Under the pieces are notes generated by a model. It searched no databases and was not told the origin of the DNA. It saw only the letters and a list, made by a program, of their open reading frames with translations. From Cudoniella acicularis (Eukaryota > Ascomycota > Leotiomycetes > Helotiales > Helotiaceae), in contig JAAMPI010000534.1 in the NCBI GenBank assembly GCA_013054445.1, positions 1-32,930 on the forward strand: DNA of 32,930 nt, in the 5' to 3' direction. Both the position numbers and the translations under genes were made by a program. This document shows, piece after piece, positions 17,191-25,328 of the stretch; within the stretch, counting starts at the first letter, position 1, and each line of letters starts with the position of its first letter.

Positions 17191-18235
17191 TCAGCCATTT
17201 GGTCTCATCTGATACGATCCAGCCTCCGTCCTTAAATCTCTTGTTCTTGAACCACCTCGACGATAGGGAGAGAACCGGCCGACACTTCCTTCACCAGATT
17301 GAGTTGAGTACGCTCTCCCTCTACCACGATTCCATCTGCGATCCCTGCCACTATTGCTGGATTCTTCTCTGGGTTCTCCTCCTTCACAGTTTTTGCTGAG
17401 AGAACGCTCATCATACTGGACAAGCCGATCCCAGTCCTCCAATGACGTATAAGGACTTCTTAACCACGCCTTCAGTTCATGCAGAAATAGCCGTGTGTTC
17501 TCTCTCCCTAAGAAATCTTGCAGCATTTCCTCTGCCTGACCGGTACTATCTTGAATGTCCACCGTTCTGAGAATGGCTGATATGTATTCGAGCAAAAATT
17601 CGGCGTTGTTGGCCCTTCGATCCGAGTTTGAAGATGAGGCGGCATTTGAATTGAGGAACTCAAAGACCCCAAGCTCCCTTCTTATCCATTTCTTGGCTTT
17701 CAAGCCAAGTTGTGTGCCATTCCGGAATAAAACAGGACGTCAGTTCTTGGTATTGAGACATTCGATTTGATCCAACATGGAGAGAGTATAACTGGTTTCG
17801 GTAAATGTGGCGGCGACGAAGCAGAGCATCGTTAGGCGTGGTAGGAGGTCGTGTATTATATTGGCGTCTAGCGTACGGTCTTCTAGGTCGAGAGGCAAAT
17901 ATCCGTCGAGTTGAAGCATTCGAGGTGGCTGAAGGGTTCGCAGCAGGAGCGGACGGGACGATATATGTTTTGAATAACTCGCCCTCCCTATAGTCATATC
18001 GGACCGCCTTAACATCGGCCTTGCACAGAGGACATGTCGGCGATTCCTCAAGCCAACTAAGCAAGCAGAGGAAATCGAAGCTTTGGTGCTTGCAAGGCTC
18101 CGCGGTCGCTAACTCGGTGACATTTTCGAGGCAAATAACACAGCAGTTCTCGTCGTCAGTCGTATCATCGCGGTTTGCAGAGATCTCGTCCAGAGTGGTG
18201 CGAAGGACCTGGGATCGCACATCCACACTGTCCAT
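17191..18235 (-). CDS. RING-finger protein, fungal Topors-like, with internal +1 frameshift
   Basis: Probable E3 ubiquitin ligase. Frame 1 runs 18235 to about 17735 (166-167 codons): a RING at residues 32-71 (CVIC, CKH, FDFLC, CPLCK), then an Arg-rich region and YRNQLYSLHVGSNRMSQYQELT. The frame then breaks. The rest continues in another frame from about 17733 to 17191: LFRNGTQLGLKAKKWIRREL, matching the FRRN...WLKREL block that follows in Topors relatives, then a Ser/Arg/Gly-rich C-terminus. Skipping one base near 17731-17737 (for instance one T of the TTTT run) joins them with family-like spacing and gives about 347 aa. As written, the first frame reads on to a stop at 17660. A 46-nt intron (GTCCTG...GAAAG) also restores frame but would delete the conserved block. 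Gene identity is fairly sure; intactness is not. Confidence 0.75.
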
Positions 18236-18676
18236 GAAGATGTTGAAAGGCCAGGACAGCCATAGAATTCGATGTAATTATTAAACCTTCGTCCAAGCTC
18301 GCATTCGGTTTAGCGAGCGCCACGTGCTAGCGTGTTGACGCGGAGGAGACACACGACTTCAACGATGATTTTAATATTAACTCTTATTGTGAATAAGCCT
18401 GTTGACGAAAACTGGACTTTGGTATCTCCCATGAGAACCAAACCAGCCAAACCACCTCTAGGAACACAAGACCAAGGAAAACACCACCGGTCCCCGGAAA
18501 TACAGGACACCAGAGAGGCGGGAGGGCAGGAGGCTGGTATGCAGAGAGGAAGGCACTCGGGATTCTGCTATGTTTCTTAGGTTAAAAAGTGAAGCTTGGA
18601 CTTGTGGCTCTTAACACATTGAATTTGTAAAGCATGTTCTGATTCATACGCTTTCTTCCCAACTTCACAGTCAGAC
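18236..18676. other. Intergenic, nothing recognised
   Basis: 440 bp between two minus-strand genes. It should carry the RING gene promoter next to 18236 and the 3' end of the rhodopsin-domain gene. No motif stands out. Confidence 0.5.
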
Positions 18677-23350: not shown

Positions 23351-23772
23351 AAGGGGGAGATCTTTTGGTGGCAATTGGGGATAAAACAGCACCACTGGAG
23401 GCAGGCTGCGACGGGATCAAGCTGGGTTTGTTTTAGCTTAGTTCCATAATAAAAGGATGATGTTTAATTGCACTTACCTTGCATGAGTTGATTACCAATT
23501 TTCGTGTAGTCTTACCAGTTAATTAATTATTTCAATATCTTTTAAATGGAAGCTGTAGAATCGTTTTCCTAGGTAGTTGCGGTCGGATTTACGGTACGAA
23601 GTAGAATTGTCAGGGGCGCCGGAGCGCGGCCGACTCGAACCGGCACGCTAAGTGATAAGATAACCGGCTGAGAGGGTTAGAACGCGTTTGTATGAGTTCT
23701 GCAGCGCGTCCGCCAACCCCTCGACCTCGACGTACATGCCATAATTGTGGCAACAAAACACGCCTTTTCAAG
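23351..23772. other. Intergenic, Sld2 promoter region
   Basis: Contains the 3' flank of the permease and the Sld2 promoter. A perfect MluI box is present at 23682-23687. An upstream in-frame ATG at 23692 would add 27 residues to Sld2. A tRNA-like B-box on the minus strand near 23631-23640 does not fold into a tRNA. Confidence 0.5.
23682..23687. promoter_or_regulatory. MluI cell-cycle box (ACGCGT) upstream of Sld2
   Basis: A perfect ACGCGT palindrome 86-91 bp before the preferred Sld2 start. ACGCGT is the MBF target in yeasts for G1/S genes. One copy can occur by chance (another lies at 12203-12208), so function is inferred from the gene it precedes. Confidence 0.35.
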
Positions 23773-25328
23773 ATGCAGGAAACAGAACGAGCTGAGCTGA
23801 CTGAGAAGTCAAATACTCTGAGGCTAGAATTGAAGGTATGGGAGAAAAGTTTCGCAGCAGCAAACAATGGCAAAAAGGCTTCACGCGACGACATCAAAAA
23901 CCACCCTGATATTGGTAGAACATGACCTCTAATCTTCATATTATCGGGACTCTTTGCTAATTGCCTTTTCAGCTACCAAATACAAGGAATATAACAACCT
24001 GCGAGATATTCTTTCTGGGAAAATACAACTACCAAAACCAAAAGCGAAACACCAAACACCTCGAAAAAGAAAGCACGAAGAGTCACAATTGGAGGCCTCG
24101 AAAAGGCAGCAAATAGCACATACACCCAGCCGTTCATTACACCCATGGGACCTTGATCCGTACCACTCGCCTTCCGTCGTTCGAAATCTCTTCACGCCCT
24201 CCAAAAAAGACTGCACTCGGACCCACACCACAAAAAGATGGACAAGTTTTGGGGTTATTTGATCTCCTGCAAGACAGCGGAACAGAACCTTCGCCGTCGA
24301 AGCTAGAAAATACTAAGGCTCTAGGGATTAATTTACCGCAAGCTACACCACAAAAATCAAGACCTCAGGATTCGCTGAAGCATAGCAAAACTCCAGTTTC
24401 AGCATCAAAGCGGTATTTATTGGATGCTTTTGCCACGCCTATGAAGAACAAGAGTCTCAATGGCCAAGGGGGTAGAACGCCCTCTTCGGTCTCGAAATTA
24501 CACTTCTCCACGCCGTCATTTCTCAGACGAGATAGCCAAAGAATTCGGCAATTACCTGCTGTGAACGAAAATGATGACGGGCCCATGCTAAGCCCAGAAA
24601 TGATTCGGGTACCCAGGAAACCGCTAGTCAGGGGCCTAAGCAGTATGCTGGCGGGCTTGCGTAGAATGGAAGAAGAAGCAGCAGACGAAGATCTAGAGGC
24701 TCTTTATGAAATGGAAAATGAGATGGCTGGTATCACGAGCAAACCAGCTCCAAACCCGAAACTGAAACCAGTACTTGAAGAAGCTGCTGTATTAGTCGAA
24801 GATAGCCAACCCGGGTTTCCCCTGGGAGGATTCGACGACGAAGCAAAATTCGACAGTGAACCTGAGGAGGTCAAGAATCCAACTCTAGGACGAGACGGCC
24901 GGCCTCTGAAGGCATACAAGAAGAAGGGGCAAAAACGAACCACGCGACGAGTGAACATGAAACCTGTTCGATCAAAATCTTCGGCACTAAATCCGATACC
25001 AGCAGATGAAGACAGTGATGATGAACTTGTAGCTGGTCATGTCGAAGCAATTCCCGAGACGCAGGGTGATGACATGTCAGGCTTTGCAGATGCTAGGAAT
25101 TTTGACTCCGACACACAGTCGGAATATACTGCTTCTGAGGGTGGTACGAGGTATAAGAGACCCGATCAGAGTAAGAAGAGGAAGGTTATGGGAAGGGATG
25201 GAAAGATTAAGATCGCGGCGAGAAAAGTAACCGCTTTGGCAAATCAAAACTTCAAAAGACTGAAGTTGAGGAATTCAGGGGCAAAAGGGGGAGCGGCGCA
25301 CAATAGTCGATTCAGGAGGCGGAAATAA
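23773..25328 (+). CDS. sld2: DNA replication regulator Sld2/Drc1, with +1 frameshift in an A6 run
   Basis: Sld2 is phosphorylated by S-phase CDK, binds Dpb11 and helps load GINS/Pol epsilon at origins. Predicted exons: 23773-23914 and 23973-25328; intron 58 bp, phase 1. The start at 23773 puts the conserved LRLELKVWEKSFA about 20 residues in, as in the family, and has a purine at -3. Then follow DIATKYKEYNNLRDILSGK, a long basic/Ser-Pro region, the conserved GPTPQKDGQVLGLFDLL, and a basic C-terminus (NFKRLKLRN, FRRRK). At least seven full CDK sites (S/T-P-x-K/R) are visible: TPRK, TPSR, TPSK, TPQK twice, SPSK, TPMK. The frame breaks at the A6 run 24203-24208: LFTPSKK is in one frame and TALGPTPQKDG in the next. 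Five As instead of six give 498 aa. As written the upstream frame stops at 24262. Confidence 0.85.

Follow-up and report, generated by a model that had tools for sequence, protein, structure and literature searches.

Single-base +1 frame switches in a Cudoniella acicularis contig as probable insertion-biased errors of the draft assembly

The draft assembly of Cudoniella acicularis (Helotiales) comprises 53,198,242 bases in 1836 contigs, one of which (C1321, 32,930 bases) is the window analysed here, that is, the whole stretch of DNA under study. Its printed sequence contains single-base +1 frame switches in three genes, namely those for Sld2, for a RING-finger protein and for the tail of a rhodopsin-domain protein, and the direction is the same in all three cases (one surplus base each). 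Judged from the sequence, these switches are very probably due to a sequencing or assembly error which is insertion-biased, acts genome-wide and consists partly of homopolymer over-calling. The three switches would then be residual single-base insertions in the draft, the Sld2, RING and rhodopsin-domain genes would most likely be intact in the living fungus, and the error process would be active across the whole genome, with surplus bases favoured. The frame switches in the window would thus be an ordinary artefact and a real gene feature is unlikely; reads, we infer, would give no support for the surplus bases.

Frame switches in the window

The three affected genes and the intervals to which their switches could be assigned are the following:

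23773..25328, plus strand: Sld2/Drc1 gene, PF11719 in three pieces, from homologue mapping
24203..24210, plus strand: Sld2 frame-switch interval, A6 run plus the next two bases, from the homologue motif NLFTPSKK-TALGPTPQKDG
17194..18235, minus strand: RING-finger gene, frame -2 at 18235-17738 and frame -3 at 17736-17194, zf-RING_2 (3.5e-09) in the first ORF
17736..17739, minus strand: interval of the RING frame switch, free of runs of at least three bases, from homologue mapping and motif
18677..20056, minus strand: rhodopsin-domain gene, normal introns between the exons, frame change in the last exon before the tail
18838..18892, minus strand: rhodopsin frame-switch interval, P0242 tail match from 18838, last upstream stop of the second frame near 18893

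The Sld2 gene consists of an exon at 23773-23913, a stretch which runs from 23972 in frame 2 to 24208, and a frame 3 part from about 24204 to the stop, the locus being otherwise open. Homologue mapping (120 listed sequences) places 99 in both frames, first in frame 2 and afterwards in frame 3, 16 in the second frame only and 5 in neither. The conserved stretch NLFTPSKK-TALGPTPQKDGQVLGLFDLL, whose motif is present in 23 of the 25 homologues printed, spans the switch, and the surplus base lies within the A6 run or directly 3' of it (24203-24210). In yeast, replication requires Sld2 as an essential factor. The profile search reported no second PF11719 match in the genome, all three pieces being on the window contig, and the lack of a second copy makes a true break of Sld2 unlikely.

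At the RING site, both frames are matched in 118/119 homologues and the second frame only in the remaining one (the window's own P0167 is left out of this count), and in 97 of the 118 no residue at all stands between the two frames. A local anchor was found in 89 of these homologues and 83 motifs were captured, the commonest being DLTPQLF; in 80 of these 83, L-T (or the residues equivalent to it) is followed by proline. In the window, the first frame encodes ELT and the second P-V-L-F, which puts the conserved proline in the second frame and the switch ahead of it, at 17736-17739. This interval comes before the T4 run (17729-17732) and lies outside it: the RING switch is not a homopolymer event. 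A placement within the T4 run was rejected, as it would lose the conserved proline.

The claim of the earlier note that conserved sequence continues in the next frame is therefore borne out for Sld2 and RING by 99/120 and 118/119 homologues, respectively. Moreover, comparison with relatives, which the same note had envisaged, shows homologues changing frame at both sites without an intron-sized gap. The named homologues of both genes are, as far as we can judge, largely from helotialean fungi. In five other genomes represented among the homologues, the locus tags of Sld2 and RING follow directly on each other (e.g. L3040_003778/003779 and VTL71DRAFT_11744/11745); in the window, the rhodopsin-domain gene and an amino-acid permease stand between them.

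The spliced exons of the rhodopsin-domain gene correspond to the annotated protein P0241 (G7Y89_g7542, 343 aa) except for its last 14 residues. The tail encoded in the second frame matches that of P0242 with a score of 59, which none of 2000 shuffles reached; the match to the tail of P0245 is less clear (29/2000). No support was obtained from P0243 (1065/2000), P0244 (1619/2000) or the paralogue L030 (928/2000), and the first-frame end matched none of these five proteins. The next-frame tail proposed earlier is thus upheld by two of the proteins compared but not by the other three. The search returned five proteins including the query itself, so that fewer homologues stand behind this case than behind Sld2 or RING. 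The switch falls between about 18892 and 18838, where T4, A3 and G4 runs occur, and its placement is no finer than this. The fungal rhodopsin-domain family (PF20684) is very large in this genome, with at least 161 matches (150 of 301 candidates scored).

Other genes of the window read normally. The mitochondrial carrier ORF is complete, and by eye the pieces of the amino-acid permease (21.3-23.35 kb) and of a gene at 1.85-4.5 kb on the minus strand are joined through usual introns; from its translation and the motifs in it, we take the latter to code for a DNA ligase. A Fig1-family gene (PF12351; 25846-26643, minus strand) is split over two ORFs, with about 51 extra bases between its matches (by arithmetic), which makes an intron likely.

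Further switches in the genome

Twenty 10-kb stretches of the genome were sampled and their junctions inspected, and family searches were added. Six further +1 switches were found on four contigs (C100, C1200, C993 and C1371; L005 and L017 are the stretches on the first two), each being read by eye against family motifs:

L005 ~5404-5416: ABC transporter nucleotide-binding domain, +1, at or adjoining a G6 run
L017 2953-2961: NLR gene, +1, at A9
L017 ~3919-3926: ankyrin part of the same NLR gene, second +1, outside any run
C993 ~245-253 and ~785-792: HSP70-like gene, two +1, at A9 and A8
C1371 ~7926-7930: rhodopsin paralogue, +1, outside any run of three

Contigs other than that of the window are thus affected, in genes unrelated to each other, and the switches are not special to the window. 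The shared direction observed in the earlier note extends to the larger set: bases are surplus in 9/9 counted events and missing in none (two-sided sign test, 0.004). The shared sign, the additional events elsewhere and the single, otherwise open Sld2 locus agree with that note's preference for error over independent mutations.

As regards sequence context, five of the nine events coincide with runs of at least six bases or with their edges, three lie outside runs and one is not placeable. Runs of this length make up 1516 of 232,930 bases (0.65%), so that the enrichment has a p value of 1.4e-9, or about 1e-8 by arithmetic when the runs are widened by one base on each side, figures which refer to events found by inspection (one of them while a nearby G run was being viewed) and not to a random sample. 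Not every event lies in a homopolymer run: the RING, C1371 and second L017 events are in no run of three or more. Homopolymer over-calling, as suggested before, accordingly describes five of the events and not these three; similarly, the statement that each window switch can be removed within a short homopolymer stands for the A6 of Sld2, fails for RING, and for the rhodopsin interval, with its T4, A3 and G4, cannot be tied to one run. A more fitting description of the error is insertion-biased, homopolymer over-calls being the commonest kind found.

Family screens and local rate

Six families (PDR and MRP transporters, Aldedh, HSP70, TCP1 and SNF2) were screened, with 132 matches over 101,421 bases, by computing how many extra bases separate adjacent pieces that lie fewer than 400 bases from each other. 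Frame-changing gaps had at least 44 extra bases and were intron-like, except those on C993 and C1043 and the first pair on C329; in this last pair the pieces overlap, one of them reads through stops, and an intron can be seen in the sequence. Two non-intron switches were therefore detected, on C993 (+1) and on C1043 (-1, in a decayed copy). No abutting frame change was seen in TIGR00956 (7 candidates scored) or TIGR00957 (5), these 12 large transporter genes coming from a scoring which favours intact copies, and such switches were absent from 11 Aldedh contigs and 9 TCP1 contigs. PF07690 was left out of the count (9 of 674 candidates scored), and the rhodopsin matches (at least 161) were viewed by eye as neighbouring pairs only.

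In addition, 487 same-strand ORF pairs were considered, the best 70 of the 487 serving as leads only. Fifty ORFs, taken from 19 of the 20 sampled stretches, were scanned against Pfam, which does not amount to a full error count there; at the thresholds applied, 13 of them matched no family. The junctions in L009, L013 and L023, as well as those in L008, L019 and L021, the MFS joins of L005 near 9.08 kb and the L017 gap near 2.8 kb, were rejected as switches, being introns by eye. A gene model built on codon usage and including frameshift states was discarded as too weak, since it gave a negative score for part of the DNA ligase.

In the screens, pairs of pieces revealed one switch in an open gene over 101 kb, compared with three in 6.5 kb in the window, which suggests either a local excess or an effect of selection. 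Since gene ends escape the screens, intact copies are favoured by them and the window itself was chosen because events had been seen in it, no true cluster is claimed.

Alternative explanations

Real frameshift mutations, either in recent pseudogenes or as strain-specific losses, appear improbable. Three events within 6.5 kb, the presence of accessory families (the rhodopsin paralogue and the NLR) among the genes affected and the existence of truly decayed copies in the genome would be in line with them. These decayed copies, however, look different: an SNF2-like copy (L039, C1043 28300-29600) has in-frame stops plus a missing base, and a rhodopsin copy (L037, C1265 17350-18350) has in-frame stops, a lost stretch and TGA twice where tryptophan is expected. 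Both carry stops together with a -1 or longer loss, and are thus decayed genes unlike those of the window, each of which is open apart from the switch and conserved for hundreds of codons to either side of it. No pseudogene marks beyond the switch were found in the Sld2 and RING homologue alignments. Frameshifted pseudogenes share with the window genes the loss of frame within a conserved gene, but differ in that here there are no accompanying stops, only one sign occurs (9/9 events) and a single-copy gene, Sld2, without a second match in the genome, is affected.

Introns restoring the frames are still less probable, and the case in their favour is a fourth gene of the window:

4811..7470, plus strand: Tip20/RINT1-like gene, body with PF04437, first residues ambiguous
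4833..4874, plus strand: ambiguous stretch, explicable by a surplus base at or close to A8 (4866-4873), by a 42-base intron or by an upstream exon not seen

Consecutive parts of PF04437 lie on three ORFs of this gene (three ORFs were scanned, the last exon being outside the scan). Two frames are visible at 4866-4873, the second of which carries RLEDYLNDKIQTAADL and lacks its own start codon. One surplus base at or close to A8 could account for them, but so could a 42-base GT...AG stretch (4833-4874), which would also join the frames, or an upstream exon, and the gene was kept outside the count of nine. The 42-base stretch has no branch-site match and is slightly shorter than the intron-like gaps of the screens. 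At Sld2 and RING, the homology pieces abut without a gap, which excludes introns there.

About equally improbable is a reading through of the printed sequence by the cell, by means of programmed +1 frameshifting or transcriptional slippage. The single direction of all nine events would be expected of it, and at the several A runs slippage is conceivable. Programmed +1 ribosomal frameshifting is known from Ty1, EST3 and antizyme, where, as here, the frame moves forward by one base inside a gene. Unlike those systems, however, the nine sites have, by eye, no common slippery codon or stop context; unrelated genes are affected, three of the sites are in no run, and the listed Sld2 and RING homologues are single proteins read in one frame across the site. 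A wider version, in which the printed bases are true and the fungus tolerates surplus bases in many unrelated genes via transcriptional or +1 ribosomal slippage, has just as little probability; if true, the tolerance would include an essential replication factor (Sld2).

Probable source of the error

The interpretation of the switches as an artefact is independent of the sequencing platform. The C. acicularis genome is presumably a product of the International Institute Zittau group, and Ion Torrent reads assembled with MIRA would be our guess. In the available text of three genome notes found under the name of that institute (PMC6953518, PMC7380537 and PMC6486252), Ion Torrent PGM (two) or S5 (one) sequencing and assembly with MIRA 4.0 and Geneious are described. 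For the PGM, the available text of Bragg et al. 2013 (PMC3623719) gives insertions as more frequent than deletions and empty flows as over-called, and states that deletions predominate in longer homopolymers. The errors described there resemble those found here in being single-base indels with an excess of insertions and with over-calling of runs as well as of empty flows, the latter fitting the events outside runs. The dominance of deletions in longer runs does not fit the surplus at A8 and A9, nor that at G6. A flow-order pattern for the events outside runs was discarded, three sites being too few.

Implications and minor observations

The pattern seen in the window is mainly a warning for users of this C. 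acicularis draft. The public protein set of this genome contains products truncated at the switch sites (P0241, 343 aa, and the RING protein P0167, 191 aa), and claims of gene loss or pseudogenes which are based on this assembly need checking against reads. In the available part of a survey (PMC10569646, section 25), the STE2 receptor of C. acicularis is given as not annotatable and alpha-factor as detectable; whether an error of this kind might be the cause of the missing STE2 annotation is raised here as a question only.

Scattered N letters, which speak in favour of the error explanation, occur in 5 of the 20 sampled stretches, at L009 2533, L010 95, L015 1114-1177 and 4980-4981, L016 8536 and L018 9630. 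Furthermore, an MFS transporter of L005 has an in-frame TGA at about 9207-9209, the flanking stretches continuing in the same frame.
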